From positions 1 to 64,000 of the IMG/VR virus record IMGVR_UViG_3300008448_000033: 64,000 bases of DNA. One strand, given 5' to 3'. Under the pieces are notes generated by a model, which had not been told where the DNA came from, searched no databases, and was given only the letters and a program-made list of their open reading frames with translations. This document shows positions 9,476 to 39,680 of the stretch, piece after piece. A program made the translations under genes and the position numbers. Numbering within the stretch: position 1 is the first letter of the stretch; every line of letters starts with the position of its first letter. This stretch comes from a virus.

Positions 9476-9505
9476 ATTCTACCATAGATCTATTTACTTT
9501 TTCAA
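9476..9505 (-). promoter_or_regulatory. Promoter of the tRNA-Leu pair
   Basis: TTGAAA, 18 bases, TAGAAT preceded by TATGG, just upstream of tRNA-Leu (UAA). It would also transcribe tRNA-Leu (CAA) and structured RNA A. Confidence 0.65.
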
Positions 9506-9760: not shown

Positions 9761-9960
9761 CCATCATACTCCTCTACGGTTGAAGTGTCAATAATACTTG
9801 CAAGGTTATTTGCACCTCTACGCATATAATCAGTACCGCCATCCGTAAAGATTTCACCACACTTGCACTTGACAAAATCGTGACGATGCTTGCTCACAAT
9901 CTCGTCACCACACTTTGCACACTTGCAACTATTACGGATTATACGGTAATTCTTCGACAT
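9757..9960 (-). CDS. Zinc-ribbon protein with GGTDYxRRG motif
   Basis: 67 residues from the ATG behind AAAGGTTGAAA. Contains CAKCGDEI, an HRHDF block, CKCGEIF, then GGTDYMRRG. This compact zinc ribbon with C-terminal G-G-x-D-Y-x-R-R is a recurring small phage protein type of unknown function (resembles DUF7695 from memory). Overlaps neighbours by a few bases. Confidence 0.72.
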   Translation of the reverse strand: MSKNYRIIRNSCKCAKCGDEIVSKHRHDFVKCKCGEIFTDGGTDYMRRGANNLASIIDTSTVEEYDG

Positions 9961-10168
9961 TTTCAACCTTTTTGTAGTCCTTGAACATATCTTCATGGCA
10001 ATGATCTTTATCGTTCATAACAAAACTATAGAAATAATAAGGATAACGAGAGTCATTTTCAATGTCAAGAATAATCAATAAATCCCCGTAGTATTCATCT
10101 TCCTCGTTGATGTTGACAAGCATATCACCAATGTTGTATCTTGTCAAATCTTTTCTATGCTCGCCCAT
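9932..10168 (-). CDS. Small SH3-like array protein
   Basis: 78 residues; IGDMLVNINEEDEYYGDLLIILDI, then YYFYSFVMND and a C-terminal helix. Matches the array's first two strands (IGDxL, LLIILDI) with an acidic loop. GGAGGA upstream of ATG. Function unknown. Confidence 0.75.
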   Translation of the reverse strand: MGEHRKDLTRYNIGDMLVNINEEDEYYGDLLIILDIENDSRYPYYFYSFVMNDKDHCHEDMFKDYKKVENVEELPYNP

Positions 10169-10326
10169 GTATAACCACCATCCTCCTGTGGTGAGTCAAA
10201 CCATTTGACAATATAATAAAAATTGTCATAGTGAACAACTATACCATAAGGTTGTGGATGCTCCAAATTATTCCATGTTGACATTTTGACAAACTCGCCA
10301 ACATCAAAAGTTTTCTCTCTCCGCAT
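10144..10326 (-). CDS. Small SH3-like array protein
   Basis: 60 residues; VGEFVKMSTWNN, PYGIVVHYDNFYYIVKWFDS, then TWASIEKI. An almost consensus member: YGIVV, YYIVKWF, final W-x-S-I. GAGGTTGATAACTA precedes ATG. Function unknown. Confidence 0.82.
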   Translation of the reverse strand: MRREKTFDVGEFVKMSTWNNLEHPQPYGIVVHYDNFYYIVKWFDSPQEDGGYTWASIEKI

Positions 10327-10486
10327 TAGTTATCAACCTCAAACTTTTATTGGAGTGGAATCCATTACGGTTCATACTCTGCCAGAACACTTCAAAAATG
10401 TCAAGACCATTATCATTATGAATCTGGACAATAGTACCGGGACCAACAAATAGTGGATGCGTTACAATACTACCAATTGCAAACAT
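10304..10486 (-). CDS. Small SH3-like array protein read from a tRNA end
   Basis: 60 residues; IGSIVTHPLFVGPGTIVQIHN, then FEVFWQS, then SLRLI. A clear array member. Its ribosome-binding site GGAGG lies in the 3' acceptor strand of tRNA-Thr, and the A of its ATG is the last base of the encoded CCA end. A transcript cut at the tRNA 3' end would lose this start region, so tRNA processing and translation of this gene look mutually exclusive. Confidence 0.8.
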   Translation of the reverse strand: MFAIGSIVTHPLFVGPGTIVQIHNDNGLDIFEVFWQSMNRNGFHSNKSLRLITNAERENF

Positions 10487-10559
10487 GGTGCCTCCGACTA
10501 GAATCGAACTAGTAATTCATCATTACAAGGGATGAGTTATACCATTTAACTACAGAGGC
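10486..10559 (-). tRNA. tRNA-Thr (UGU)
   Basis: Acceptor GCCTCTG/CGGAGGC, D stem GTTA/AAC, anticodon loop CTTGTAA in a CATC/GATG stem with one mismatch, T arm ACTAG-TTCGATT-CTAGT, encoded ACCA. Last base is shared with the next gene's start codon. Confidence 0.88.
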
Positions 10560-10578
10560 GTCAAGAACAAATTGGTGT

Positions 10579-10652
10579 TGAGCCTTCGTATGGGATTTGA
10601 ACCCATATTAACGATGCCTCGTTATCCTGCCGGTTAGATCAACGAAGGCTCA
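10579..10652 (-). tRNA. tRNA-like element with shortened anticodon arm
   Basis: Has an ATC/GAT D stem with a GG in the loop, a standard T arm (ATGGG-TTCAAAT-CCCAT), and an end helix of 11 perfect bp (10579-10589 with 10642-10652) instead of seven. Between the D st and T arms there are about six bases fewer than in a normal tRNA; that segment folds as TAACG/CGTTA around a six-base loop AGGCAT with no U33. No anticodon can be assigned. A decayed tRNA gene or a non-decoding tRNA mimic. Confidence 0.6.
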
Positions 10653-10655
10653 AAT

Positions 10656-10730
10656 TGGTGACTCCAACCAGATTTGAACTGGTGTAATAGCCTTGAAAGG
10701 GCTATGTCCTAACCGCTAGACGATGGAGCC
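10656..10730 (-). tRNA. tRNA-Glu (UUC)
   Basis: Acceptor GGCTCCA/TGGAGTC, D arm GTC...GAC, anticodon stem TAGCC/GGCTA with loop CTTTCAA, T arm ACCAG-TTCAAAT-CTGGT, encoded ACCA. Confidence 0.9.
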
Positions 10731-10737
10731 TTAAAAT

Positions 10738-10813
10738 TGGTAGGGAGTGTCGGACTCGAACCGACCACCAAAGGATTAAAAGTCCTTTGCTCTACCTGAT
10801 GAGCTAACTCCCC
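10738..10813 (-). tRNA. tRNA-Lys (UUU)
   Basis: Acceptor GGGGAGT/ACTCCCT, D stem GCTC/GAGC, anticodon stem AAGGA/TCCTT with loop CTTTTAA, T arm GTCGG-TTCGAGT-CCGAC, encoded ACCA. Its first ten bases are also the last codons and stop of the upstream HNH gene. Confidence 0.92.
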
Positions 10814-11160
10814 ATGCTTTCTAACTCATGTATCTCTCTATGACAGTTTGCACAGACTAAGATACATTTGTCAATTTCTTTTTTTATTGCTTCCCAAGAT
10901 CGTGTTAAACCTTTATGGCTTATGCCAAAATCTTTATGCTGTGGTTCTATGTGATGAAAGTCGAGAGCAGATATACACTTATTATACCCACATTTCTGGC
11001 ATTGTCCACCTTTATGTTCCACCGCCATTTGCTTTAACATATCTCTGCGTTTTTGCACTTGATAACTTCTACATTTCGTACAACGGTAATACCCTCTACC
11101 CTCTAGGACGAATGGCACATTACCATGCTTCTTGCAATCTCTGTTTTCATAATTTGGCAT
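10804..11160 (-). CDS. HNH homing endonuclease-like protein
   Basis: 118 residues, ATG behind AGGAGGTGTTGTT. Two N-terminal CxxC-type pairs (CTKC, CQKC) and an HNH core: ALDFHHIEPQHKDF, then CILVCANCHREIH. Families of this type cut DNA near their own insertion site. It lies inside the tRNA cluster and its stop overlaps the 5' end of tRNA-Lys by ten bases, as if selfish insertion placed it exactly at a tRNA boundary. It has its own extended -10 promoter. Confidence 0.85.
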   Translation of the reverse strand: MPNYENRDCKKHGNVPFVLEGRGYYRCTKCRSYQVQKRRDMLKQMAVEHKGGQCQKCGYNKCISALDFHHIEPQHKDFGISHKGLTRSWEAIKKEIDKCILVCANCHREIHELESMGS

Positions 11161-11181
11161 AACAACACCTCCTATGCCTAA

Positions 11182-11204
11182 ATAGTACCACAGATTACAA
11201 AAAG
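11182..11204 (-). promoter_or_regulatory. Extended -10 promoter of the HNH gene
   Basis: TGTGGTACTAT on the minus strand with a poor -35 region. The same TGTGGTA lead-in occurs in the tRNA-Arg, tRNA-Ile and 18985-19012 promoters, which suggests a phage-preferred extended -10 form. Confidence 0.5.
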
Positions 11205-11214
11205 ACTTAAAAAT

Positions 11215-11289
11215 TGGCTGGACGGGCTGGAGTCGAACCAGCGATAGGAAAATTAACAGTTTTCTGCCTTGCCTCTTGGCTACCGTCCA
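11215..11289 (-). tRNA. tRNA-Asn (GUU)
   Basis: Acceptor TGGACGG/CCGTCCA, anticodon stem GAAAA/TTTTC with loop CTGTTAA, T arm GCTGG-TTCGACT-CCAGC, encoded GCCA. Lies 28 bases after structured RNA B and is probably on the same transcript. Confidence 0.9.
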
Positions 11290-11317
11290 ACTATATCATA
11301 CTCACTCTAAATTACAA

Positions 11318-11597
11318 CTTGAATCTAGTGGAGCAGGTTCTTTAAAATGGGTTCCATTCCACTCCCCGCTTTTCGGTAGTGATACCCTTATCGTATCACA
11401 TGATAGCTGCATTTCAACACAATTCGGTACAAGCCCATTTAGTTTTGGATAGCACTCGCACACAAGTAAATGTCACCTAGCAGTAACGCAAGGACTCGTT
11501 TTCGGTCTAAACACTATCCTCAAGACAGCAATGCCCTACCAGACGTTTAACAGCAGCTTTAAACGTACCTCATATGTATTACCTAACTAGATTCAAG
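11318..11597 (-). ncRNA. Structured RNA B (unassigned), about 280 nt
   Basis: Non-coding stretch whose ends form a perfect 12-bp helix (11318-11329 with 11586-11597). Internal hairpins include 11379-11385/11393-11399 (7 bp) and 11543-11549/11560-11566 (7 bp). A consensus -10 (TATAAT, 11600-11605) with TTGCCT 16 bases upstream places the start at or inside the 5' arm of the closing helix. Not a tRNA, tmRNA or RNase P by visible motifs. No clear sequence similarity to RNA A. Unassigned. Confidence 0.62.
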
Positions 11598-11599
11598 AC

Positions 11600-11627
11600 A
11601 TTATACACTCTTTATGTACCAAGGCAA
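11600..11627 (-). promoter_or_regulatory. Promoter of structured RNA B
   Basis: TTGCCT, 16 bases, TATAAT on the minus strand. The -35 overlaps the 3' arm of element C. Confidence 0.65.
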
Positions 11628-11740
11628 GGGGAACTTTCTTCACATTTCCCTTGCTAGACGCCCTATTATAATTCTCCCCTGTATACGGGACGGTGATCGA
11701 AGCGCCATACATCACCTAATTAATAATTTCCTGCCTTGGT
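11618..11740 (-). ncRNA. Structured element C (unassigned), about 123 nt
   Basis: Ends pair perfectly over 9 bp (11618-11626 with 11732-11740). Inside: GGTGAT/ATCACC (11691-11696 with 11710-11715), a TCCC/GGGA hairpin, and GCAAGGG/CCCTTGC near the 3' end. It lies between tRNA-Arg and RNA B in the same orientation and resembles in size the stable non-tRNA RNAs known from the T4 tRNA cluster. It may be an independent RNA or a leader. Confidence 0.5.
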
Positions 11741-11789
11741 TTCTTGGTTAACTTACTATAAACTATCATCGTACTCCTGTCAACAAAAT

Positions 11790-11866
11790 TGGCGATCTGG
11801 GAGGGAATCGAACCCCCAACCTAAGAGGTAGAAGCTCTTTGCTCTATCCAATTGAGCTACCAGACC
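11790..11866 (-). tRNA. tRNA-Arg (UCU)
   Basis: Acceptor GGTCTGG/CCAGATC, D stem GCTC/GAGC, anticodon stem AAGAG/CTCTT with loop CTTCTAC, T arm GGGGG-TTCGATT-CCCTC, encoded GCCA. Reads AGA. Confidence 0.9.
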
Positions 11867-11872
11867 GCAAAA

Positions 11873-11901
11873 GATGTACCACAGATATTGGAACTTGTCA
11901 A
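11873..11901 (-). promoter_or_regulatory. Promoter of tRNA-Arg
   Basis: TTGACA, 17 bases, TACATC preceded by TGTGG, ending seven bases before the tRNA 5' end. Confidence 0.6.
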
Positions 11902-11974
11902 CGAAATCTACTCGTTGGGCGTGTACGGTGACGATGCGCGAGGAGGAACCGTAGGACGCCTCTGTAGGTACAAT

Positions 11975-12064
11975 TGGTGCGCCCGCTAGGAGTCGAACCT
12001 AGTCTAGGCGGTCATCTACCGCAAAGCGATTATAAGTCGCTCTCGCAATCCGATGCACGGGCGC
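11975..12064 (-). tRNA. Class II tRNA with UAU anticodon (Ile?)
   Basis: Acceptor GCGCCCG/CGGGCGC, anticodon stem GCGA/TCGC with loop CTTATAA giving anticodon TAT, an extra arm of five bp (GCGGT/ACCGC), T arm CTAGG-TTCGACT-CCTAG, encoded ACCA. The D arm is short and irregular. UAU reads AUA (Ile), but a long variable arm is normally found only in Leu, Ser and Tyr tRNAs, so what it is charged with is uncertain. Confidence 0.75.
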
Positions 12065-12077
12065 GTTAACTTTGTAT

Positions 12078-12105
12078 ATCGTACCACAAACCACTTAATT
12101 GTCAA
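12078..12105 (-). promoter_or_regulatory. Promoter of the class II tRNA
   Basis: TTGACA, 16 bases, TACGAT preceded by TGTGG, 14 bases upstream of the tRNA. A 7-bp inverted repeat (12119-12125 with 12173-12179, long loop) separates it from the upstream gene and may end that transcript. Confidence 0.65.
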
Positions 12106-12200
12106 CGATCAACTTACAGAGAGAGTCTAACACTTTTTCTTGACCATGTTAAGTTTTCGATGGACTGTTTATCTCTCTCATTTAAGTTACTTTATCATAC

Positions 12201-19012: not shown

Positions 19013-19206
19013 GTACTTTCTTTTACCACTTTATACTCACCAGACTGCATATAATTTTGTATTTTATCAAGCAAATAAATATAATCTTCTAAGCTATCTC
19101 TATTATTATCGTCTTTAATAAAGGTATAGCTAATGATACATTTATCGCTAGTTGTTTCAACCGTTATAGTAGCGATATTGTCTCTTGTTAAGATTATTTT
19201 ACTCAT
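19009..19206 (-). CDS. Small protein of unknown function
   Basis: 65 residues; start overlaps the purA-like stop (TAATG). Beta-rich N-terminus (KIILTRDNIATITVETT), helical C-terminus (EDYIYLLDKIQNYMQ). Probably translated together with the purA-like gene. No family recognised. Confidence 0.68.
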   Translation of the reverse strand: MSKIILTRDNIATITVETTSDKCIISYTFIKDDNNRDSLEDYIYLLDKIQNYMQSGEYKVVKEST

Positions 19207-20204
19207 TAGATTCTTTCTGGGGAATCAGACCAATAAACTTTTACATAATATGGGATTCTTGAAGTAACCCATCCTTGCATTTCTTTTTCATTTGGGAATT
19301 CTACAAGGAAATCTTTTTCGTCGTAGACTCTCCAAACTCCAACATCTCTCAAAATATCAGTCTTGTTAAATACAACTTTATTTACACCATTAATATTAAT
19401 GGCTTTGATAAGATCATTCATTTTGATCCAATTACATTGACGGGGACGACCAGTAGTGGCACCATATTCCATGCCTTTTTCACGAATCTCTTTAAATACT
19501 TCTTCATCTGGTTCAAACTTCTTTAGTCCAACATATGTTTCATAAGCCTTTGCAACGCCCCAAATATTTCTGATCTTCTGTGGTGGAACACCATTGCCGA
19601 TTGCAGCAGCAACAGTGCATCCACTACTAGTAACATAAGGATAGTCTCCCCAGTCAATATCAAGTCCAAAGCCCTGCGCCCCTTCAAAAAGAATTCTACA
19701 ATTTTCTCTAGAAGAGTGCAATTCCTCATACATATCAATTAGATATGGCTCTAAGGCTTTTACTTGTTCCGCTCGTAAGCCCTTACGCCAGTGCTTGTCA
19801 CGATAGGCTTGACCGACTCCACGTTTTGTTGTCCCGATAGTGTTATCTTGTCGATCCTCCATAATGTGTTCATCGGTGATGATATGAGCATTTCGTGCAA
19901 TAAATACCAAGCCCTGACACCTGATACCACCATTTTCTAACTCCTCCATTTCCTGAAAGAAATGGTCCACGTTTAAAACACAACCGGGACCGATAATACT
20001 TTTAATCCCGTAGAACACGCCACTAGGGATAGAGTGGGTAATAAACTTCTTCCCCTCATGGTAAATAGTATGACCGGCATTATTGCCGCCGTTGTATCTA
20101 ACTACATGAGTATAGTTTTCTTTCTTGCATAATTGATGTGTAACTTTGCCCTTACCAGAATCACCATAAGCTAAATCTACGACTACATCAGCATACTCAA
20201 TCAT
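19206..20204 (-). CDS. purA: Short adenylosuccinate synthetase (PurA/PurZ type)
   Basis: 332 residues, ATG behind GAGGATAAT. Family enzymes join aspartate to a 6-oxopurine nucleotide using GTP. Visible: GDSGKGK P-loop (D15 kept, following residue Ser instead of the usual Glu), NNAGHT with H45, IGTTKRGVGQAY, FEGAQG, DYPYVTSS, GATTGRPRQ, NKTDIL. Bacterial PurA is about 430 residues; this length matches archaeal short PurA and phage PurZ, which makes the precursor of 2-aminoadenine DNA. Ser in the P-loop is a reason to test for PurZ activity. No DatZ- or MazZ-like gene is seen here, so ordinary AMP supply remains possible. Confidence 0.88.
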   Translation of the reverse strand: MIEYADVVVDLAYGDSGKGKVTHQLCKKENYTHVVRYNGGNNAGHTIYHEGKKFITHSIPSGVFYGIKSIIGPGCVLNVDHFFQEMEELENGGIRCQGLVFIARNAHIITDEHIMEDRQDNTIGTTKRGVGQAYRDKHWRKGLRAEQVKALEPYLIDMYEELHSSRENCRILFEGAQGFGLDIDWGDYPYVTSSGCTVAAAIGNGVPPQKIRNIWGVAKAYETYVGLKKFEPDEEVFKEIREKGMEYGATTGRPRQCNWIKMNDLIKAININGVNKVVFNKTDILRDVGVWRVYDEKDFLVEFPNEKEMQGWVTSRIPYYVKVYWSDSPERI

Positions 20205-21370: not shown

Positions 21371-22822
21371 CTAAATGTCTATAACTGTAAATACTGGATT
21401 TGCATCACGGCTTGTGGTTTTAAAAATTGCAAAATTTCCAATATGTAAATCACCTGTCCTATCGCCAGCCTCTTCAAAATCTAACAACATTTTTATAATT
21501 TCATTTGCTTCATTCCGCGTTATTACTTTTGGTATTCCGATTGATTTTAATGATTCCATAGTTCTAGTTAAGGTAGCTTTTCTGTCGCCTCTATAAGTAT
21601 GATAATTCGCTTGAAAGGCGTTAAGAATCTCATAAAATTCGTTGGATGCTTTATTTGAATCTCTACTGGTATCTTCTATGTGGGTAGTAAACGGAACCAC
21701 TTCAGGAGTAACTACCCAATATAATTTATCATTCCAGCTACTAATTTCGTTAGCGGCTATCAAACTAGATAAATCTACCTCACCATAATCCATAGCCGGG
21801 AAAGTATTTTCAGATGCTTTTCCGCTATGAAGCCGATCTATTAATTTTTTATACCAATCAAAATCGTTATTGTACGTACCAGTAAAAAATTTAATATAAT
21901 AATCGTTGCTTAATTTGTATAGCTCGCCTTGAGTTCCATAAGTTATTTCTTTGGTGATGGTTGTATTCTTTAGGATAGGAATTTCTGAAATTATTTTTTT
22001 AATTGAATCTTCTCTCGTAGCTGATCGGAATCTAATCCCAGCATTCTCAAAGGCATCTTTTATCACACTACTTCTGCCCATACCGGCAACAATATCAAAA
22101 CCTTTTAATTTTGCTTTAGAAAGCAAATCAGCATTTTTTTCTAAAGCTTTTGGATCAGAAATATCATCACCAACTTCTTTTGTATATTGTATTGGTTTTT
22201 TTGGTATAGCAAAATAATTTGCTTCATCTAAAACTTTTTCTACATGATGTGTTACGACTTTTGTTTGATCCTGTGTTAGAGCAGATTCAAATTCTTGTAG
22301 ATGTTCTGCTTTATCATCCCAAATTTCTATCAATGAAATCTTAGGATATTCCTGTAATACTTTTTTAATTTGTTTAATTTTAAAGTCTACAGTATCATTA
22401 CCAGAATCATTTAATTTGACAAGATTAAATTCTAATCCCTGTTGTTCAAGAAGATCTGCCACTCTATCACCAAAGTTTTTTTCTAGTCTACCAGATAGCA
22501 TCATTGAAAATGTTTTTTTATTATCAATCGCTTCTCTTGCAGCTGTTATTGTATCTTTGAACCAGTAACTTAAATCTGGGTTTTCTTCAACATTTGGTTC
22601 GGCTAATGATTCTTTGCTAGCCCACCAATTTCCTTTGTACCCTTTGGGTTTTTCTGGGCTTCTAAAAAGAGTACCATCAAAATCAAAAACAGTCAAACGT
22701 ATAACCATGTTTTCGTTGGGATTTTGTGCTTCTCCTAAAACATATCTACTCCAAAACTTTTTATAGTTTGGTTGTTCTTTTTGATCTGTTTTTGACTTTA
22801 AAAATTTTCTAAATGAATTCAT
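21371..22822 (-). CDS. HAD phosphatase-like domain fused to a kinase-like domain
   Basis: 483 residues. Residues about 41-200 form a HAD domain: FDFDGTLF (D47-x-D49 nucleophile and acid/base pair), a later MLSGR, and IWDDKAEH, close to the HAD domain found in RNA-repair proteins. From about residue 290 a kinase-like fold is suggested by GELYKLSNDYYIKFF (N-lobe) and GDLHIGNFAIF (D458, H460, N463) with a terminal I-D-I (D482), matching the catalytic and metal loops of aminoglycoside-kinase-like proteins. One chain could both remove and add phosphate. Lies among putative head-packaged proteins. Confidence 0.7.
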   Translation of the reverse strand: MNSFRKFLKSKTDQKEQPNYKKFWSRYVLGEAQNPNENMVIRLTVFDFDGTLFRSPEKPKGYKGNWWASKESLAEPNVEENPDLSYWFKDTITAAREAIDNKKTFSMMLSGRLEKNFGDRVADLLEQQGLEFNLVKLNDSGNDTVDFKIKQIKKVLQEYPKISLIEIWDDKAEHLQEFESALTQDQTKVVTHHVEKVLDEANYFAIPKKPIQYTKEVGDDISDPKALEKNADLLSKAKLKGFDIVAGMGRSSVIKDAFENAGIRFRSATREDSIKKIISEIPILKNTTITKEITYGTQGELYKLSNDYYIKFFTGTYNNDFDWYKKLIDRLHSGKASENTFPAMDYGEVDLSSLIAANEISSWNDKLYWVVTPEVVPFTTHIEDTSRDSNKASNEFYEILNAFQANYHTYRGDRKATLTRTMESLKSIGIPKVITRNEANEIIKMLLDFEEAGDRTGDLHIGNFAIFKTTSRDANPVFTVIDI

Positions 22823-22823: not shown

Positions 22824-23225
22824 TTATTTCTTTTTAAGCGTTTGATATTCCATATAGTCTGTAACTGATTTAATCATTGAATTAGCAATTGCAATCTTTT
22901 CTTGTACCCAAGGTTCTAGGTTAGTATCATCTTCAAGAATATTGTGCAACATTGTAGCATTTTTAGCTAAATGATATAAATTGCTTTTTGACATTTCACC
23001 TTCATAATCAAGCTCTACGTCTTGAAGACCACCAGATTCCATTTCTTCTGGTTGCATTTCTGAGTCAAAGTCTGCGTCAATAACTTCCATTTCACCATGA
23101 CTTGGATGCCCACAACCACCTTCACACATATCGCCTTCGTGAACGGTGTAAGGATTATCACCCATTGTATGATGCATTTCTTGCAGGATCATTTTTTTTA
23201 AAAGTTTATCGTTTAGGTTTTTCAT
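22824..23225 (-). CDS. Tagged virion-type protein
   Basis: 133 residues. N-terminus MKNLNDKLLKKMILQE ends in L-Q-E, the cleavage type used by T4-like head proteases. Then a Cys/His/Gly patch (CEGGCGHPSH), an acidic middle, and a C-terminal helical part (KNATMLHNILEDDTNLEPWV). The ending is a recurrent phage virion-associated type. Likely an internal or decoration protein; function unknown. Confidence 0.68.
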   Translation of the reverse strand: MKNLNDKLLKKMILQEMHHTMGDNPYTVHEGDMCEGGCGHPSHGEMEVIDADFDSEMQPEEMESGGLQDVELDYEGEMSKSNLYHLAKNATMLHNILEDDTNLEPWVQEKIAIANSMIKSVTDYMEYQTLKKK

Positions 23226-23235
23226 ATTTAGCTCC

Positions 23236-23466
23236 CTACTTTAGCATTTGTTTTATGGTTTTTAAAGTATCTTGAACAGTTTTTAAATCTGTGCTTTTTA
23301 AAGCAGTATCGACTAAAGTATTTATTGTTTTTATTTTTTCAGGCGTTAATTGAGTAACGACAGTAGTTGTCATAGTTGGAGAAAGACTAGTAGGAGGAGC
23401 TAATTCCTCTTTAAGTTTAATCTGTTCTAAGATTAATTTTTCTAATTGTTTATTATTAATTTTCAT
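23236..23466 (-). CDS. Small tagged protein
   Basis: 76 residues; N-terminus MKINNKQLEKLILEQIK with I-L-E at 12-14 (tag), then a Pro/Thr-rich linker and a C-terminal helix (TDLKTVQDTLKTIKQML). Overlaps the next gene by 11 bases. Probably a head-packaged or scaffold-associated protein by its tag; function unknown. Confidence 0.66.
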   Translation of the reverse strand: MKINNKQLEKLILEQIKLKEELAPPTSLSPTMTTTVVTQLTPEKIKTINTLVDTALKSTDLKTVQDTLKTIKQMLK

Positions 23467-24760
23467 TTGTTTCCTCTAAAGCACTTGGTCCAAATGGCCC
23501 GAATCTTTCACCCCTTGCTACTGCACCTTGACCTTTATGTTTCTTAGCATTCTTTTTAAAACCACTCGCTCTTCCAAATGATTTATTTAAAAAAGCATCT
23601 TGTTTTTTAGCTGCTGCAACGCTAAGAACCTCTTCTATCTCTTTCATCTTTTCTTCTGTTTCTTTTATTTCTTTTTCGTACTTCTTATTTAGTATAGTTG
23701 TAATATCTTTTGACTTATTTTGTTGCTCTTTTGCCCATTCTTTATCTATGCTATTGTTAGGTCTACGTTTAGCTCGCCTTGCTCTTTTTTTTGCACGTTC
23801 TTGCCAATATTTTGATAATTTTATTTTAGATTCTTGTAAATAGTCTTCTTCTTCAGAAAAATCTGATCCTTGTTCAAGCGCAACATATAAACCTTTTTCT
23901 TGAAGATCGCTTCCAAGTTCTTTTAATTTTGCAGATATCTTAGGATCTTTTTTTAGCGAATGATAAATTCTTGTACCATGATCTAGATACTTATATTTTA
24001 TCATATTTATGAGATCGGTAATTTTTTCTGCTTTTTCTTCATTTCCTTCTTCTTCAGCATCCGCTTTGCTTTGAAAAAATGTTTGAAAATCAGATGCACC
24101 ATTTATTATCGAATCGAGAACTTTAATAAAACTTATTTTATTCCCACGGCTATGAGCTAATCTTTTTACTATTTTCATGGCTTGGCCTACATAAGCCTCA
24201 GTTTCATCTCTGTCCATTAAGTAATTAAAATCTTCTTTTTGTTTGTCGGTTAAAAAACGATAAGGAGATTTATCTTCTATATTTGCAAGACCTCTTGTAA
24301 AGTCCTGAGTTAAATGAAATGATTCATGATAAAATAAATCAGCTACCGCACCATGAAAATATTTATAATATTTTTCTAAATCATTAAAGCTTTGTACCTG
24401 TGAATCAATTTCAATTTCTAAATTAATATCGCCTTTATTAAAGGTATAAGAAACACCACCGTATTCTCTTGAACTATTATTACTGGGGAAATATCTAGCG
24501 CCTATTAATCTTATTAGGACTCCTTCATTGTCGGACAATCCATCAATTTTTTCAATAGTGACGGAAACTTCATTTATCTTTTGTATAAATTCATTATCAA
24601 TTTTATTAGCAAATCTATCGCTACGAAATACTAAACTATCTCTTAAGATTTGTTCTGGATTTCTTTTAAAGAAATTTAATAAAAATTCAGCAAATTGATT
24701 GGAGATTTTATTTCTCCAAGCGTTTTTACTTCTTGCTTCATTTATTAATATTTTAATCAT
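23456..24760 (-). CDS. Putative zinc metallopeptidase with head-targeting-like tag
   Basis: 434 residues. Starts MIKILINEARS (I-N-E at 6-8). YHESFHLTQDF (HESFH at 145-149) is a zincin-type HExxH site, and DRDETEAY about 40 residues later could give the third ligand Glu. The C-terminal third is very basic and helical (EEDYLQESKIKLSKYWQERA, then RRAKRR) and would bind DNA. Possible roles: a protease carried in the head and injected with the genome, or one acting in head maturation. Inference only; activity untested. Confidence 0.68.
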   Translation of the reverse strand: MIKILINEARSKNAWRNKISNQFAEFLLNFFKRNPEQILRDSLVFRSDRFANKIDNEFIQKINEVSVTIEKIDGLSDNEGVLIRLIGARYFPSNNSSREYGGVSYTFNKGDINLEIEIDSQVQSFNDLEKYYKYFHGAVADLFYHESFHLTQDFTRGLANIEDKSPYRFLTDKQKEDFNYLMDRDETEAYVGQAMKIVKRLAHSRGNKISFIKVLDSIINGASDFQTFFQSKADAEEEGNEEKAEKITDLINMIKYKYLDHGTRIYHSLKKDPKISAKLKELGSDLQEKGLYVALEQGSDFSEEEDYLQESKIKLSKYWQERAKKRARRAKRRPNNSIDKEWAKEQQNKSKDITTILNKKYEKEIKETEEKMKEIEEVLSVAAAKKQDAFLNKSFGRASGFKKNAKKHKGQGAVARGERFGPFGPSALEETNEN

Positions 24761-24764
24761 AGTT

Positions 24765-25484
24765 TTATAATCTTCTTGCGAATAAAGTATTTGCTGCTTT
24801 AACTAATTGTTTGATAAAGTCTTCTTTATTTGTTATTATAGGTTTTCCTTTTGCATCACGTTGGTTTAACTTATCATCTGCTTTTGATATTAAATATTCA
24901 ACTTGTTTAATTAGTTTCGGACTTCTGTAAGCTTTGTTTATGAAATTTTCAGAATCAATTTTATTGATTTCACAGTCATCAATGATTGGTGGCGTTTCTT
25001 CGTAACCATCTAATTTTGTTAATTTATAATTTTTTCCTTTATATTTAACTTGAAATCCTGTTTGCACTTCTGATTCTGGTTCTCTTTCTAAACTACTCCA
25101 AACTCTTTTTGCAGAATCACTAACGCTTCTTCTATCGGGCATCATAGATGCGCCCCCATCAGTATTATAAACATAAGCCATTGCAAGCTTATACATCATT
25201 TTACCAATTCCTTTACCTTCATATTTTTGCTGAATTGAGCTTCCATTAACGTTATATGCGTCTAAACATGGTCCCATATTAGCAGAAGATCCTTTTTGTA
25301 ATTCTAAAGAACCAATTAGAAAAGGTTTAGAAGATTCAAGAAATTCTTTAGCAGAGTAACTATCTGTTTTCGGAAATTGTGATAAGTCAACTAATATAAA
25401 TTTTATGTCGTTACCTTTATCGATTATGATACCATAGTCGAGATTATTATTTTCTACTTGTTCTTTTATAATAACCCTAATCAT
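24765..25484 (-). CDS. Putative GNAT acetyltransferase with tag
   Basis: 239 residues, start MIRVIIKEQVE (I-K-E at 6-8). GNAT motif A is visible as YEGKGIGKMMYKLAMAYV (acetyl-CoA pyrophosphate loop G-K-G-I-G-K), followed by DRRSVSDSAKRVWSSL, the usual next element. Family members acetylate amines, proteins or RNA. With its tag and neighbours it may be delivered into the host, as ADP-ribosyltransferases are in T4. Substrate unknown. Confidence 0.72.
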   Translation of the reverse strand: MIRVIIKEQVENNNLDYGIIIDKGNDIKFILVDLSQFPKTDSYSAKEFLESSKPFLIGSLELQKGSSANMGPCLDAYNVNGSSIQQKYEGKGIGKMMYKLAMAYVYNTDGGASMMPDRRSVSDSAKRVWSSLEREPESEVQTGFQVKYKGKNYKLTKLDGYEETPPIIDDCEINKIDSENFINKAYRSPKLIKQVEYLISKADDKLNQRDAKGKPIITNKEDFIKQLVKAANTLFARRL

Positions 25485-25895
25485 TTACCACTTCCTACAA
25501 CTCCAATATCTAGCTTTAGTTCTTGGACCGGGATTGTCACAGTTATGCCTTGCGCGAAATGATTTACGACGTTTTGGATTGCTCTTTTTAATTTTCATAT
25601 TTGGATCACCGAAATTAACTTTTTTAATATTTCCGGTGACAGGATCACGAACATACACTTTGAATTTTTTAACATCACCACGCATTGGCTTGCCCAAAGG
25701 TACTGATCTTCCTTGGTATTTTGCTTCTTCTAGTTTATCTGGGCATCCACAAGTTAGGTCTTCGTATAAACAAGCTTCACAAACTAGTGTACCGTCTTCC
25801 AAAACAGCAGAGTCGTCACCGATCTCTTCAACAATGAGGTGTTCTTGAATGCTCTCTTGGACGATTTTTTTAATTTCTGTATCTGTGAATTTCAT
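25485..25895 (-). CDS. Tagged Cys-rich basic protein
   Basis: 136 residues; start MKFTDTEIKKIVQESIQ (V-Q-E at 12-14). Then CEACLYEDLTCGC, and a very basic C-terminal half (SVPLGKPMRGDVKKFKVYV, later KKSNPKRRKSFRARH, then CRKW). The C-terminal block is a recurring phage module of unknown function, often next to tail/head genes; probably DNA-binding. Confidence 0.7.
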   Translation of the reverse strand: MKFTDTEIKKIVQESIQEHLIVEEIGDDSAVLEDGTLVCEACLYEDLTCGCPDKLEEAKYQGRSVPLGKPMRGDVKKFKVYVRDPVTGNIKKVNFGDPNMKIKKSNPKRRKSFRARHNCDNPGPRTKARYWSCRKW

Positions 25896-25898
25896 TTT

Positions 25899-26732
25899 CT
25901 ATTCCTCTTTTTTCTTTTTTGACTTCCAAGAAACTCTCATGGAGCTTTTCTTTCTTCTCATGCCTGCTCTGGTGCATGCTGATGGTGTTGGTCGGCAAGC
26001 AGGATATTTGCTTCGTTGTTCGCCGCTTTGTCTACCGCATGTTTTACAAGTTTTACGACCAGTTTTAGGATTGGTTCGGCAAGTATTGCAATCGACCCAA
26101 CCTCTACCCTTTTTACCACCAGCACGGGCAAACCAACCATGTAACCCTTGTGATTTTTCTCTGTCAAAAGTTCCTTCTTGTAGAATAATTTCTAAATCTT
26201 CTAAAGAAATGGATTCATTGTTTTTTTCTTTGCCATCGCAATAGGCACGCTCACTAAACCCATTTGGATGATCACAATCAATACTTTCCTTACGCTTGTC
26301 AGACCACCCTTCACCTTCTTCTATATCTTGCCCTTCTTTCATCTTGACTCTTGATTTTTTTCTACCGACTTTACCCCTTCGGCATCGAACGATGAAACCG
26401 GAAGCGTATGCGCTTGGAAATACATCATATTTTTGTTTAGCTAGATGGTAACAGCGATCTTTCTTTTCGTATATTAATTCTTCAAAAAGTAAATCCTCAT
26501 CTAATTCTAATTCTTCTTCTGCGTTAGACTGGGCTGGATAAGCTCTGTTAGGGGTTTTATCATAAATATCATCACCAGATACGATATTACCTAGAGGATT
26601 ATTCATCTTATAAGTTGGCATCTGTGTACCGATTTCGCCTTGTTTTCTTCTATCCTCGCCATCTGGTTTATAGAATGAAGAAATATCGTCACCATCTTTA
26701 GCTTCTTCTATGTTTTTAAATTTTATTTTCAT
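25899..26732 (-). CDS. Tagged multi-module Cys-rich protein (DUF5872-like)
   Basis: 277 residues from ATG (MKIKFKNIEEAKDG, I-E-E at 8-10). Contains RCYHLAKQKYDVFPSAYASG with a following R-C-R-R (DUF5872-like, from memory), a second Cys/His patch (IDCDHPNG), and a C-terminal GLHGWFARAGGKKG...C-N-T-C...KTCKTCGRQSG...KYPACRPTPSAC segment with many Cys and a basic end. These modules recur in phage virion-region genes. Likely DNA-binding and head-packaged; function unknown. Confidence 0.68.
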   Translation of the reverse strand: MKIKFKNIEEAKDGDDISSFYKPDGEDRRKQGEIGTQMPTYKMNNPLGNIVSGDDIYDKTPNRAYPAQSNAEEELELDEDLLFEELIYEKKDRCYHLAKQKYDVFPSAYASGFIVRCRRGKVGRKKSRVKMKEGQDIEEGEGWSDKRKESIDCDHPNGFSERAYCDGKEKNNESISLEDLEIILQEGTFDREKSQGLHGWFARAGGKKGRGWVDCNTCRTNPKTGRKTCKTCGRQSGEQRSKYPACRPTPSACTRAGMRRKKSSMRVSWKSKKKKEE

Positions 26733-30529: not shown

Positions 30530-33367
30530 TTATCTTGTTTTGATTTTGAGATCACCGGCTTTAGATGATAACATATCAGATTTAAACTTTACAGAATTAA
30601 TTGTAAGTTTTTCCATTCCCGGTATTTGTATAATAATATCTGATCTATCTTGCACAACAATTTCTTGTGGATTGAAGTTACTGCTACCGTCATTTTCTAG
30701 GCTCACTTCGGAAACAGTAAGACCAGATGGACCATCTTTGACTTTTAAGAAGATATCATAGTTTTTATTTTCTTCGTCTTTACCAACGTCAGCTTCTCTT
30801 ACAAATGCCATAAGATCTTGCGGTTTCATTCGTCTAAGATTCTTGGTCAATACATTTCTTATTATACCATATACTTGTTCCATAGTTTCTTTATAAACGT
30901 CTGGATTCTTTTCTTTTGCAGAAACCATCCAAGCAGGAGCATCTAAAGTTTCATAATCTGGATCATACGTCTTATCTTTAAAATTACCTGTATTTGTTTT
31001 TAACTTCTCTAGAAATGTCTTTCTACCAACAACCCACCAAGGATCTCCTTTTGGATTTCTAACTAGGCTATCATCTTCTGTGCCAAATCCAAGAACCTTG
31101 TTCATTTTGTATTCATTATCTTTCTCGCCAGTTGCATATTTAGCTGAAAGTCCAGCAGTTTTACCATCCACGGTTTTCAAAATAAAATCAGCTTTGTTAT
31201 TTGTGCTACCAACTGATTCTGCACTAGCTATTTTACCAATCTTGTTTATAATAATTGGTTTTGCCTCAAGGGCAGATTGGAATAGATGTTTGTATTTATC
31301 GCTTTTTAATTTTTCTAGAACGTCTTCTCTGCTAGCATCTGGTCCTAAATCAATTCTATTCTTTAGTTGATCGGTTTCTTTTCCGGTCAATACAAAGCCA
31401 ATTATATGCTCATAAGCTAGACCTTCACGTTCTGCTATATCGACTCTATAAAAGACTTTAGCGATTACTTCACCATCTTTCATTACGTTTGTTGTATCTC
31501 TTTTATCATCAAACTTTAAAATACGCTCATCGTGCAATTTATAACCGGCAGATTTTAAAGCTGATTTAATCTTAGATATACCTTTCTCAAGAGATTCATC
31601 ATCCTCAAAGCGAACAGCTAAACTGTTTGGTGTTTTATTAGATGGTAAAACAGAAACAAATCCTTCTGGATTAGCAGAAGATATTTTTGATGTAATTTTG
31701 CTTAATTCTTTTTCGTTGAGAGCTTCAAGGACTAAAGAAGAAATAATATTTTCAGATAAATTGTCTGATGGTTCTGTAAACTTTTCAATATATTTTGAAT
31801 TTTTTAATAAATTTTCAGAGATATCTAATAAATTTAAAAAGCATTTTTCTAAATTTTTAAACTCTTTATTTGATGCTAAATAAAAAAATAATTCATTCAG
31901 TTTGCCAATGGCGAATAAACCACTATAAGCTCCAATTCTTATCTGTTGTTTTTCGCCCTTAACAGATTCAGACTTAATAAAAATTATTTTAGGATCTGAT
32001 TTTATATCGTTAATTGTTTTATTTACAATTTTTTCAAAATTGCTTACTGAGCTTTTATAATCACCAATAAATTTTTTTAAAGAATTAGGTATTTCTTCCT
32101 CGTTTAAAGATTTGATGTCATTCATAAAGTCTTGATAAAACTTTTTTGATTCTTCAGAATTTTTGCTAATTAAGGTTTTTATGGTTTCTAATTGTGTTTG
32201 TTCTATATTAGAAAAATCTATATTTTCAAATTGAAAATTTTTAATATTTTCTGCTATAGAAAATATTCTAGCATCCGTAGATTTTTTATTTGTTATTTTA
32301 CCGATATGGTTTATAAATTTATCTAATAATTGAGGATAAAGAACTTTTTTTGGCTCTAAAATATCTACTAGTAAAAATACTTTTTCATCGTATCTTGTAA
32401 TAAGATTTTTTAATTTATAAAAGTAAGATTTAATTTTTTCTTCATTGTTGTATATGTTATTAGTTTGGTTACAAAAATCTTCAATTAATATTGAAGACCA
32501 TATTTCCCTGTCAGAAAAAGTTTTTTCATTAAAATATTCCTCTACTTTAGTAGAATCAATATCAAATATAGAATATAATTTTTTGTATCCACCGCCAGCA
32601 GATTGATATAATTCTTTTTCTGTTTGATTTTTTAAAAACTCTTGGCTTGGACGAACGCTACCACCTCTATAAAAGTATTCACTTCCTCTTTTAACAGAAA
32701 TTCCTTTTTCAATTCCATTAGATACTATATAAAGATCAGCAGATGTTTTATAAAAATATCTATCTCCTTTTTTTTCTTTTTGGTTAAGACCAACAAGATT
32801 TAAAAAATCTATATTTTTAATATCAATTTGATTTTTCAAAGACCAATCATCTATGTTGGCTTGAACAAATTTGTATGTCTCACCATGAAGTTTAGTTCTT
32901 TCAGACTCATCTGGTAAAAAATATTCTAAGGTGTCATTTATACATTTTTCGCTAGTATTGGAGCCATTAAATTTAATATTTGGTATCTTCAAATAATTTT
33001 TTTGACGTAAAAATTTTATAATAGATAAAGCAAGACTGTACTCAGCGGCAGATCCAATATCTGTTGGTACTATAACATCATCACAAATTTTTACTGCTTT
33101 CTTTTTTTTATCTGATTTAGGCTCTTCTTTAGGAACCTCTTGCGAGGATTCTGGTGGCATTACCTGTGTAGATGCTACTGCTGGCTTGGTCCCTATTTGA
33201 TCGGTAAAAGTAGTTTTTCTTCTAATTATTGGTGGAACCGCTGTGATAGCTGGTTTCTCTGGTTTCTTTTTTGTTTCTACTAATTCTAAAACAGATTCAT
33301 AGATCAATTTATACTGATCGCTTTGTTTAAATAATTGTTCGTCTATAAATTGATCTAAATCTTTCAT
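30530..33367 (-). CDS. Large tagged protein with two nuclease-like modules
   Basis: 945 residues. Starts MKDLDQFIDEQ, very like the T4 capsid-targeting sequence MKTYQEFIAE (I-D-E at 8-10). A Lys/Pro-rich linker follows (about 33-95). Module 1: SADLYIV then GISVKR (D211, K226). Module 2: NNKADFILKTVDGKTAGLSAK (D727, K743). Both have a D...(15-16)...x-x-K arrangement typical of PD-(D/E)xK nucleases. The middle is helical and lysine-rich. Probably head-packaged and delivered with the genome, perhaps to cut host or rival DNA; this is inference. Confidence 0.65.
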   Translation of the reverse strand: MKDLDQFIDEQLFKQSDQYKLIYESVLELVETKKKPEKPAITAVPPIIRRKTTFTDQIGTKPAVASTQVMPPESSQEVPKEEPKSDKKKKAVKICDDVIVPTDIGSAAEYSLALSIIKFLRQKNYLKIPNIKFNGSNTSEKCINDTLEYFLPDESERTKLHGETYKFVQANIDDWSLKNQIDIKNIDFLNLVGLNQKEKKGDRYFYKTSADLYIVSNGIEKGISVKRGSEYFYRGGSVRPSQEFLKNQTEKELYQSAGGGYKKLYSIFDIDSTKVEEYFNEKTFSDREIWSSILIEDFCNQTNNIYNNEEKIKSYFYKLKNLITRYDEKVFLLVDILEPKKVLYPQLLDKFINHIGKITNKKSTDARIFSIAENIKNFQFENIDFSNIEQTQLETIKTLISKNSEESKKFYQDFMNDIKSLNEEEIPNSLKKFIGDYKSSVSNFEKIVNKTINDIKSDPKIIFIKSESVKGEKQQIRIGAYSGLFAIGKLNELFFYLASNKEFKNLEKCFLNLLDISENLLKNSKYIEKFTEPSDNLSENIISSLVLEALNEKELSKITSKISSANPEGFVSVLPSNKTPNSLAVRFEDDESLEKGISKIKSALKSAGYKLHDERILKFDDKRDTTNVMKDGEVIAKVFYRVDIAEREGLAYEHIIGFVLTGKETDQLKNRIDLGPDASREDVLEKLKSDKYKHLFQSALEAKPIIINKIGKIASAESVGSTNNKADFILKTVDGKTAGLSAKYATGEKDNEYKMNKVLGFGTEDDSLVRNPKGDPWWVVGRKTFLEKLKTNTGNFKDKTYDPDYETLDAPAWMVSAKEKNPDVYKETMEQVYGIIRNVLTKNLRRMKPQDLMAFVREADVGKDEENKNYDIFLKVKDGPSGLTVSEVSLENDGSSNFNPQEIVVQDRSDIIIQIPGMEKLTINSVKFKSDMLSSKAGDLKIKTR

Positions 33368-33368: not shown

Positions 33369-34022
33369 CTAGATTACCTCGTCTGCAATACCTAGCTTAA
33401 CTGCTTCTTCGGCAGATAAATAGATGTTGACATGTTTTTCAAACATTTTTTTAATTGTTTGTTCTGACATTTTTGTTTCTTTACGCAAAGCAGAAATATA
33501 GGCTTGTTGTGTAAAGTTAACCTCTTCCATTTCATTTTGTAGATTATGGATCGGTCCTTCATTACCGGCAGCAACTGAATGGATCATAATGCGGCAATGC
33601 TTACCAACCTTACGCTTGCCCTTTGTGCCAGAGGCTAGCAAAAGCACGCCAGCACTCATAACCTTACCTAAGCCAATTGTGTGGATCTCGCAAACGTTCT
33701 TTGTCCAGCGCATTGTATCATAGATAGCAAACATATCATTAGCAGATCCGCCATTTGTGCAGATATAGAAATTGATTGGATCATTTTTGATTACGGTCTT
33801 TCCTCTAACTTTTTCTTCTTTCGCTCCAATGTCTCTAAGAGTTAATAGTGTTTTTACTAACTCACCAGATGTTTCCTCGCCAACGTCACCAAATAATCCA
33901 ACATTTCTTGAAATTGAATCTTCTGGACCTTCAACAATAAATTGTTGGGGTACTACAACTTCTTCTTCTGCTACATCTTCCTGTACTTGTTCTTTTGTTT
34001 TTTTGCTTGTAAAAGTTTTCAT
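33369..34022 (-). CDS. ClpP-like serine protease
   Basis: 217 residues. ClpP fold signatures: INFYICTNGGSANDMFAIYD, nucleophile S123 in GKVMSAGVLLLASG, H148 in RIMIHSVAAG, and YLSAEEAVKLGIADEV at the end. The residue matching the catalytic Asp (E. coli D171) is N199. The first 30 residues are an acidic extension not found in bacterial ClpP. May work with host ClpX/ClpA, or process head proteins; phage ClpP-like enzymes do both in different systems. Adjacent to the tagged 945-residue protein. Confidence 0.85.
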   Translation of the reverse strand: MKTFTSKKTKEQVQEDVAEEEVVVPQQFIVEGPEDSISRNVGLFGDVGEETSGELVKTLLTLRDIGAKEEKVRGKTVIKNDPINFYICTNGGSANDMFAIYDTMRWTKNVCEIHTIGLGKVMSAGVLLLASGTKGKRKVGKHCRIMIHSVAAGNEGPIHNLQNEMEEVNFTQQAYISALRKETKMSEQTIKKMFEKHVNIYLSAEEAVKLGIADEVI

Positions 34023-35175: not shown

Positions 35176-35445
35176 TTATTCTTCTAGTGCTTCTTTCAGG
35201 ATGCCCTTTACGCTTTCTTGTGGAAGTGCGGTTAGGAATGCATAAAGAGCAGACTTTGGAATTTTTTGTTCATCTAATGCTTCAAGAAAATCAACTACTG
35301 AATCTACGGTTACTGATTCTTCATCATCTGATGAATAGATTTCTAAATATTCATTTAGCAATCCATCTAGCTCATGTTCGCCAGACTCAATCTTTTCTAA
35401 TTCTTCAGCGATTAGTTCTTTAAGTTCGCCCTTTGTTATTTGCAT
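35176..35445 (-). CDS. Small tagged acidic protein
   Basis: 89 residues; MQITKGELKELIAEELEK with I-A-E at 12-14 (tag). The rest is acidic and helical (DSVVDFLEALDEQKIPKSA, KGILKEALEE). Ended by a strong terminator. By its tag probably a head-packaged or scaffold-bound protein; function unknown. Confidence 0.68.
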   Translation of the reverse strand: MQITKGELKELIAEELEKIESGEHELDGLLNEYLEIYSSDDEESVTVDSVVDFLEALDEQKIPKSALYAFLTALPQESVKGILKEALEE

Positions 35446-35457: not shown

Positions 35458-36444
35458 TTATACACCGTGCTTATTTGAAGATTTTGCAGGAGTTAAGTTA
35501 CCAGTTTTGCCAGAACCCTTAGCCTCATTGCCTACCTTACCGCCAGCACCAAATGGTTTTTTACCTGCACCGTGGCCTTTTGGATTTGCTTTACCGCCAC
35601 CTTTTGATGTTTCATGGAAAGGTGCGCCGCCTTTCTTTTGTGGACCTTGACCAGTTAATTTTGAGTGGGTTTTACCGTGTTTACCGCCAGCTTTTTTAGC
35701 TTCATTTGAAGGTGCGCCTGATTTGGCTTTCTTTTTCATCTTCATTTTTTCTTTGGCTGACATTGCTTTGCCTTTTGCGCGAGCTTCGGCAAGGATACGA
35801 GCCTTAACGCGAGCTAAAACAGCTTCGGTTAAATCAGTTGATTCGTGTACTGGTTTGCCGCTTTGGGCTTTAGAATCTTTCATACCTTTTCTTTCGCCGG
35901 GATCTTGTACTTTTTTCTTTTCCACTTCAGCTTGTTTTTTTTCGGCTTCAGATTGTTCTTCGTTCAAGTCTTCTTCGCCATAAAGACCTTCTTCCATTTC
36001 TGCTTCTTCACCTTCTTCATCTTCCATTTCTGGTTCTTCGCCTTCTTCATCTTCCATTTCTGGTTCTTCTTCTGAAGGTTCTTCCATATCTTCTTCACCA
36101 GCACCTTCTTCGACTTCAATGCCTAATTCTGGGAATTCACTACCAATGGCTTTGATGACTCTTGAAACAACTTCTTTCTCGCTACCGCCACCAGCACCTT
36201 CCATGTCGAGTTCCATATCTTCGCCGCCCATATCGTCTTCGGCTTCTTCCATGTAATCGCCTTCTGGCATTTCTGGTTCCATCATATTTTCTTCTACTTC
36301 TTCACCACCAGCAACTTTCTTCATGCCCATACCTTCTTTGAGAACAGTGTTTTGCTCAACAAAGTTATCAGCAAATTTTTCCATATTTGCCAATTTCATA
36401 AAACGGCGGATAGTTCCCTCATCTAATCTTTTAGTATTGCTCAT
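35458..36444 (-). CDS. Low-complexity acidic-then-basic protein
   Basis: 328 residues. N-terminal 40 residues are folded-looking (MSNTKRLDEGTIRRFMKLAN, FADNFVE), then about 40-165 is Glu/Asp/Met/Gly-rich with a tandem 10-residue repeat built on EMEDEEGEEP, then from about 170 it is Lys/Gly/Ala-rich (KMKMKKKAKSGAPS, GGKANPKGHGAGKKP). Such charge separation suits a scaffold-like or DNA-condensing internal head protein. Function unproven. Confidence 0.68.
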   Translation of the reverse strand: MSNTKRLDEGTIRRFMKLANMEKFADNFVEQNTVLKEGMGMKKVAGGEEVEENMMEPEMPEGDYMEEAEDDMGGEDMELDMEGAGGGSEKEVVSRVIKAIGSEFPELGIEVEEGAGEEDMEEPSEEEPEMEDEEGEEPEMEDEEGEEAEMEEGLYGEEDLNEEQSEAEKKQAEVEKKKVQDPGERKGMKDSKAQSGKPVHESTDLTEAVLARVKARILAEARAKGKAMSAKEKMKMKKKAKSGAPSNEAKKAGGKHGKTHSKLTGQGPQKKGGAPFHETSKGGGKANPKGHGAGKKPFGAGGKVGNEAKGSGKTGNLTPAKSSNKHGV

Positions 36445-36749: not shown

Positions 36750-37054
36750 AATTCTGAATTCTCCTTTGAAATTATATCAAATATATCTTGTATTTCGCTT
36801 TCTTCTAGAGCAAAATCGTTTTTAACTTCATTAAATTGTTTTTCGTCTTTTTTAATTTTGTCTTGTAAACTAACTCTTTTATTAGTTTCTTGCAAAAGAC
36901 TTATAATTCTTGGATCTCTTTCAAGATAGCCTTTTATGATAATATCAAAAAAAGCTGATTTAGATAATTTATCATAATCAAGTTGAATCTTTAGCTTTGC
37001 TAAAGTTGAATCTTCTTGGTCAATAAATAATCTAGAACCAGCTATTTTAAGCAT
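36746..37054 (-). CDS. Helical protein of unknown function
   Basis: 102 residues; LAKLKIQLDYDKLSKSAFFD resembles ribbon-helix-helix style starts, followed by YLERDPRIISLLQETNKRV and a long charged coil. May be a DNA-binding RHH protein; low certainty. Overlaps both neighbours by a few bases. Confidence 0.62.
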   Translation of the reverse strand: MLKIAGSRLFIDQEDSTLAKLKIQLDYDKLSKSAFFDIIIKGYLERDPRIISLLQETNKRVSLQDKIKKDEKQFNEVKNDFALEESEIQDIFDIISKENSEL

Positions 37055-38075
37055 GTGGAGTTGTTTTCAAAATATGTGTGGAGCTTTCGTTCTGACCGGC
37101 ACTTGTTTGCTTAATAAATTCAGCTTTTAGGTAAAGCTCTTCTATGTTTCTAGCCCCGCTGTAAGAAAGACCGCTGCGAATATTACCAACTAAATCGTTG
37201 AAAATGTTAGTAACAGATCCCTTGCAAGGAATCATTGTCGCAATACCTTCTGGAGCGGATGACTTTCCTCTCCATTCCTGTTGCGCTTCACGGCTTGCCA
37301 TACCACGGTAACTCTTAAATCTAGTGGCATGCAGTACCGATTCAACCACATTACCGGGAGCTTCATCTGTACCGGCTAAAAGGGAGCCAAGCATTACAAA
37401 ATCAGCACCAGCAGCAAGAGCTTTAACAGCATCGCCAGCATTTTTAATGCCGCCATCAGCGATTACTGCTGCACGTATAGCAACAGAAGCACATTCCATA
37501 ATAGCTGTGAGATTTGGCACACCATGACCAGTTTGAATACGGGTAGAACAAATTGATCCACCGCCTATTCCTACCCGAATTGAGTCCGCTCCCCAAGCTT
37601 CTAGTCTTTCAAAAGCATGCCTAGTGGCTACGTTACCTGCCATGATATGGATAGATAAACCATACTTATCTCTAATAGATCTAATGGCATTTTTTACCAT
37701 TATATGATCGCCGTGCGCCACATCAATGCAGATAAAATCTGCACCTGCACTTTGCAAAGCATCAACGCGGTCCATAAAATCGCCAGTAGTACCGATAGCA
37801 GCACCAACTCGTTCACCTTCGCGCTTTACTGCTCTTACAATGTCTGCTTGTTCGCTAACGCTATTATAGCGATGAATTATCGCAACGCCGCCCAATTTAG
37901 ATAGAGCAATAGCCATATCCTGACCTGATACAGTATCCATAGGACTGGCAATAACAGGAGAATCAAAAACTAAGTTTTTTCCCAGCGCGCTAGTGAGTGA
38001 AATTTCTGATCTTGATTCTATATCGCTGTACTTTGGAACTAACAGAACATCATCGTAGCTTAAAGTTTCTTTCAT
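37047..38075 (-). CDS. IMP dehydrogenase / GMP reductase family, CBS-less
   Basis: 342 residues from the ATG behind [27 protein letters not shown] and [11 protein letters not shown] open the barrel; [11 protein letters not shown] carries the catalytic Cys176; [20 protein letters not shown] and YRGMASREA follow. IMPDH makes XMP from IMP; GMPR does GMP to IMP. There is no CBS pair. YRGM and SIC favour IMPDH, the length favours GMPR, so the direction is uncertain. With the purA-like enzyme it gives the phage both arms of the IMP branch point. Confidence 0.88.
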
Positions 38076-38299
38076 TTTTTCCTCTTTTCTTGACAATCTG
38101 GACAATAAAGATCCACTTTCTTCTGATCGCTAAAGACTTCGACAAACCAAGTCATAGCCATCTGTTTATCTTTTTTATCATATTGTTTCTGGCATGTCAA
38201 GCATTCGTTCGGTAAATTCAACATTAAATCTATTGTCGATGTTGTTTTCTTTCCAGCCATTTTGTTCAGCATCCGTCTTTGTTTTCTGTTCATTGCCAT
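38072..38299 (-). CDS. Small phage zinc protein
   Basis: 75 residues (possibly two fewer, a second ATG follows). NRKQRRMLNK start, then CLTC near residue 34 and CPDC near residue 66, ending QEKRKK. A recurring small phage protein with this N-terminal MNRKQRR and two CxxC pairs; function unknown. Overlaps the IMPDH-like start by four bases (ATGA). Confidence 0.75.
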   Translation of the reverse strand: MAMNRKQRRMLNKMAGKKTTSTIDLMLNLPNECLTCQKQYDKKDKQMAMTWFVEVFSDQKKVDLYCPDCQEKRKK

Positions 38300-39393: not shown

Positions 39394-39680
39394 CTCATAG
39401 CCTCTGCTTTCTTTTTCATTTGTCTTGCAAGATCTTCAAGTTTATAGGCAGCATCCATAAGAACTTTTTTACTGCCTAAATTGTGATCTATAGAAACAAC
39501 AGTATCGGCTAATTTAATTTTAGTACCTTCATGCTCAAAAACGACAGATGACTTAGAAACTACCTCGCTATTTTCTAATACTTCCACATCTTCATGCATT
39601 AATCTCCAAAACATTTTGTCTCCCTTATATTCCGATTGCTCTAATTCATTTCTCATAAACCAATCTTTTGTTCTGCTCAT
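39390..39680 (-). CDS. Small protein of unknown function
   Basis: 96 residues; beta-rich middle (VVFEHEGTKIKLADTVVSI) and a C-terminal helix (AYKLEDLARQMKKKAEAM). Overlaps neighbours by four bases on each side, in one operon with the DnaE-type polymerase and dUTPase. No family recognised. Confidence 0.66.
   Translation of the reverse strand: MSRTKDWFMRNELEQSEYKGDKMFWRLMHEDVEVLENSEVVSKSSVVFEHEGTKIKLADTVVSIDHNLGSKKVLMDAAYKLEDLARQMKKKAEAMR

Follow-up and report, generated by a model that had tools for sequence, protein, structure and literature searches.

Genes starting with a hydrophobic-x-E motif

The DNA analysed here ("the window") comprises the first 64 kb of a record of 85,591 bases, which is a fragment of the genome of a marine T4-like phage. 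A gp23-type major capsid protein (78290-80200 of the record) and a scaffold-like gene (80216-81673 of the record) lie beyond the window. Among annotated phages, the nearest relative found is Flavobacterium phage immuto; the capsid proteins match at 335 bits, and the sheath, the scaffold, a helicase, and other genes are common to both phages. At positions 1-12200 of the window all ORFs are short, and eight minus-strand tRNA genes lie near the right end of this region. Further genes encode a short adenylosuccinate synthetase (19206-20204, PF00709; the scores of the best PurA model, 275 bits, and of PurZ, 140 bits, are both below the curated NCBIfam cut-offs), a phage GroEL (28927-30555), which is also present in immuto, an IMP dehydrogenase-like protein (37047-38105), and a DnaE-type DNA polymerase III alpha subunit (39677-43108). 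The short synthetase could be linked to DNA with modified bases.

Nine proteins had been noted to begin with a short amphipathic stretch ending in L/I/V-x-E, with the Glu at residues 8-16 and, in four of them, the motif exactly at residues 12-14. All nine motifs were found at these places, including the four at 12-14, and all nine genes, named here by their left coordinates, are on the minus strand. Six of them are adjacent. Gene 22824 (22824-23225, 133 aa) starts with MKNLNDKLLKKMILQE (23178-23225, Glu at residue 16), and its body is common to 31 ORFs of related loci. Gene 23236 (23236-23466) encodes a small protein of 76 aa with the tag MKINNKQLEKLILE (23425-23466, Glu at 14), and gene 23456 (23456-24760) a 434-aa protein that starts with MIKILINE↓A (24737-24760, Glu at 8; arrows mark predicted cuts). 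The latter is a possible metalloprotease, judged by its HExxH motif (YHESFHLTQD); a homologue search that included viral contigs found none.

The other three genes of the run encode a GNAT-like protein and two precursors. Gene 24765 (24765-25484) has the tag MIRVIIKE (25461-25484, Glu at 8). Gene 25485 (25485-25895) starts with MKFTDTEIKKIVQE (25854-25895, Glu at 14) and has several LxE sites, one of which, LEE↓A (25725-25733), is followed by a basic module of the phrog_7595 family (25485-25724). Gene 25899 (25899-26732) encodes a multi-module precursor with the tag MKIKFKNIEE↓A (26703-26732, Glu at 10); the ATG at 26732 was taken as its start, not the longest-ORF ATG at 26759. Internal sites are present ahead of two of its modules, i.e. 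IYE↓KK (26466-26474) ahead of the DRCYHLAKQKYD..PSAYASG module and LQE↓GT (26175-26183) ahead of the GWF..GWVDCNTC module.

Three genes lie apart from the run. The 945-aa protein of gene 30530 (30530-33367) starts with MKDLDQFIDE↓Q (33338-33367, Glu at 10), in a register equal to that of T4 IPIII (residues 7, 8, and 10); searches including tblastn in phages found no homologue. By eye, this protein has two PD-(D/E)XK-like stretches, SADLYIV..ISVKRG and KADFIL..LSAKY, and it is possibly a packaged nuclease. Gene 35176 (35176-35445) encodes a small acidic protein with the tag MQITKGELKELIAE (35404-35445, Glu at 14). Gene 53223 (53223-53570, 115 aa) has the tag MKITESYLRNIIRE (53529-53570, Glu at 14) and, with its Glu at residue 23, another site, IKE↓G; no relatives were found in viral contigs.

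Two candidates were missing from the initial list. A 130-aa protein encoded near the scaffold gene (82026-82448 of the record) starts with MDKQELKKIIKPLIKECIREVLLEEG, one of the best tags. Gene 21371 (21371-22822, minus strand) encodes a HAD_SAK_1 domain protein with the site LGE↓A at residues 29-31 (22730-22738), about 8-11 residues ahead of the point where similarity to other HAD proteins sets in. In two megaphage homologues the HAD domain is not preceded by a comparable tag, and no relatives were found in viral contigs. A kinase-like C-terminus of this protein was an impression only, and Pfam gave no detection. In addition, a protein of 328 aa in which LxE occurs about 10 times (35458-36444, minus strand) is a possible head-core (scaffold-like) component; tblastn in phages gave no match for 35458 or for 60673.

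The motif occurs more often than expected by chance

The N-termini of the listed proteins have the form typical of T4-type internal head proteins with a capsid targeting sequence (CTS), a short propeptide ending in hydrophobic-x-E. L/I- and E-rich N-terminal helices often contain LxE by accident, and we estimated how far this could account for the tags. The loose rule ([LIV]xE, Glu at residues 8-16) is matched by 32 of the 131 called genes, compared with 18.6±3.8 in shuffled N-termini (p=0.001) and 20.0±3.7 in internal segments. About 19-20 genes thus meet it by chance, and many matches are in clearly unrelated genes. By itself the rule is weak and modestly above chance, and many isolated matches, e.g. 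GroEL and a helicase, are accidental. Requiring two hydrophobics ahead of x and E, a stricter condition, gave 15 matches versus 8.4-9.4 by chance (p=0.02). The run of six adjacent positive genes had a permutation p value of 0.014, so that this cluster is probably not a chance product. Exact matches to the late promoter motif TATAAATA never occurred upstream of tagged genes.

The motif is kept at module boundaries and on homologous proteins

On the N-terminal side of the module of gene 25485, [LIVM]xE is present at the exact module boundary in 72 of 74 distinct IMG/VR homologue sequences, while no other offset exceeds 10/74; these counts are not fully independent, because the homologues within the family are related. 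P3 is L/I/V/M in 73/74 sequences, P1 is Glu in 73, and P1′ is Ala in 71, whereas P2 is free, with 13 residue types. The length and the content of the region upstream of the module vary among the homologues. Small Pelagibacter and Roseobacter phages that are not of the T4 type encode the bare module. In four of them (Aegir, CRP-901, HTVC026P, and HTVC111P) the P1 Glu is replaced by the start codon (M-AKYQGR, M-ATYKGK, M-AKYKGR), and the bare modules of CRP-2 and CRP-6 begin with short unrelated stretches. LxE was also enriched in the 8 residues preceding three other modules, with 12/17, 10/22, and 5/8 cases versus 2.9, 3.7, and 1.0 expected.

The N-termini could instead bind a scaffold or another partner and stay uncut, with the conserved LxE forming part of a binding helix. 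Their amphipathic character would fit such a role, as would the finding that targeting and processing of T4 IPIII map to different residues (PMC9026906). Binding of this kind would, however, not predict a restricted P3 and P1 with a free P2, followed by Ala/Gly/Ser, nor bare homologues that begin exactly at the junction, nor a site of this kind in the capsid protein (see below), and we regard it as unlikely. Head processing of the phiKZ type (S80) was also considered. In phiKZ and SPN3US an SH-clan prohead protease likewise cuts inner-body and ejection proteins after x-E, and the sites are redundant there, but the motifs are SxE or AxE, and several propeptides are longer than 100 residues. The prevalence of L/I/V/M at P3 is not compatible with SxE/AxE, and this type was rejected.

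A two-hydrophobic-x-E tag at the N-terminus is present in 47 of 91 proteins with these modules, compared with 8.2±2.7 after shuffling; the first ATG of the frame was used as the start codon in the IMG/VR loci. The tags include MKTYREFVTE↓AEYQG, which is very close to the T4 tag, and the window-type MMKIAKSQLLEIIREE. The tag of one locus (L066) is almost the same as that of T4 IPIII.

For gene 24765, a scan of viral contigs with a single query yielded 0 loci, and a query with a two-sequence alignment yielded 18. All 13 homologues tested, i.e. those that were short or had a readable N-terminus, are tagged, versus 1.8 expected, with tags such as MNLLREYIRELLTE↓A, MKQLLTEWRKFVLTE↓G, and MRLTENQLRDIIRNIILRE↓G. 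The tag Glu (E8) is among 14 invariant columns of the alignment. Homologous bodies bear differing tag types, which argues that the tag has a function and does not merely reflect shared descent. The body is unrelated to the 25485 module; the top Foldseek matches of a low-confidence model were GNAT acetyltransferases (E about 0.001), suggesting a GNAT-like fold. Conservation of the site at the boundary of the mature protein among homologues was found for 25485, 25899, and 24765 only. Taken with the six-gene cluster and the virion data described below, the junctions and the tagged homologues make it very improbable that the tags are accidental.

Capsid protein and prohead protease

The prohead protease of T4 removes 65 N-terminal residues from gp23 (PMC9958956). 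The capsid protein of the phage studied here contains AQELLKE↓ANSMGGG ahead of its conserved part, with LKE↓A placed where gp23 is cut. The corresponding sequence of immuto is KQIVSE↓ANVTG, and other relatives have LLDE↓A, YLAE↓S, and YLKE↓N. Judged by sequence, the phage has a capsid protein of the gp23 type whose predicted cut site, an LxE site as in T4, resembles those of the tags.

A model search of the 85.6-kb contig gave no match to the S77 prohead protease. A ClpP-like protease gene is present at 33369-34022 (minus strand; PF00574), which also matches PHROG families of head maturation proteases, and the proteins could be packaged and cut by this enzyme in place of a T4-type S77 protease. 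However, the T4-type portal (PF07230) was not found on the contig either, and both portal and S77 are present in the complete genome of immuto and in two large related records, so that the head region is probably incomplete on the contig. Moreover, S77 and ClpP-like genes coexist in two related records, and immuto has S77 but no ClpP-like match. A replacement of S77 by the ClpP-like enzyme is therefore disfavoured and seems improbable. S77 is encoded in 9 of 13 related records. A search of 16 records with 24765 homologues detected it in 8; the records without a match are L143 and L144 (150 and 297 kb), which have an untagged, fused homologue, and six others, some of them short. The terminase model PF17289 had no match even in complete relatives, and its absence here is uninformative.

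Tagged proteins in the virion of cyanophage S-CREM2

We compared the gene starts of cyanophage S-CREM2 with the published mass spectrometry of its virions (PMC10665884, Table 3). Among non-tail proteins, a set that we chose from annotation and position, 7 of 16 virion proteins are tagged versus 9 of 128 others (Fisher p=0.0003); the association is weaker when all proteins are included (p=0.026). Nine tagged proteins were undetected in the virion, and nine non-tail virion proteins lack the strict motif, including gp160. This virion-detected protein has two modules in common with gene 25899, and its three modules are preceded by KLSE↓A, NLEE↓K, and EISE↓G. The SAM hydrolase, the kinase, the cytidylyltransferase, and gp13 of the virion begin with tags ending in FLEE/FLTE; the cargo differs from that of the phage studied here. 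The words "targeting" or "cleav" do not occur in the main text of that publication. A Cas9-annotated protein detected in the virion, gp12 (7704-10313 of L128), contains FASFMAE↓A (residues 19-25), which resembles a tag.

A probable T4-type targeting and processing system

For T4 IPIII, ten residues are enough for targeting; residues 4 and 7 act in targeting, and 8 and 10 in processing. T4-like phages have been suggested to use the CTS as a general route for packaging varied proteins (PMC9026906). The proteins described here resemble T4 IPI-III and Alt in the short N-terminal tag ending in hydrophobic-x-E. They differ in that many tags form a longer helix (MKxTxxxLxxIIxE, Glu at 14-16), the cargo is unrelated, and some precursors have several modules with LxE ahead of each.

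Four mainly independent lines of evidence support a T4-type tag with a protease site, i.e. the junctions, the homologues of the GNAT-like protein, the capsid site, and the S-CREM2 proteome. The preliminary description had extended this reading to all nine proteins. It is strongly borne out for 24765, 25485, and 25899 by the junctions, the tagged homologues, and the modules in common with gp160, and moderately for 22824; for 23236, 23456, 30530, 35176, and 53223, for which no usable homologues were found, the motif is what suggests a tag. Overall, we consider it quite probable that this relative of immuto has a T4-type system of capsid targeting and prohead proteolysis, in which the tags vary and modular precursors are cut at several sites. 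The amphipathic tag would bring each precursor into the prohead core, and the prohead protease would cut after [LIVM]xE, so that the tag is lost and the modules of multi-module precursors are parted. The mature proteins, i.e. small basic modules, the GNAT-like enzyme, and perhaps the HAD enzyme and the metalloprotease, would remain in the full head and probably enter the bacterium with the injected DNA. For this phage, we infer targeting, cleavage, and injection, with an S77 enzyme encoded outside the contig as the protease.

No report of such a tag code in marine T4-like phages was found in the literature searched, which excluded most subscription journals. We lean slightly towards the view that marine and freshwater T4-like phages use a general address code, in which interchangeable tag types and [LIVM]xE load arbitrary enzymes and polyproteins into the head, to be cut into injected effectors. 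The tag is a testable sequence rule, and, if the code holds, the injected proteins of uncultured phages would be predictable from sequence. It would account for the kinases, cytidylyltransferases, and similar enzymes in cyanophage virions, and for T4-like phages abundant in aquatic habitats, many hypothetical proteins could be assigned as head cargo that is injected when infection begins.
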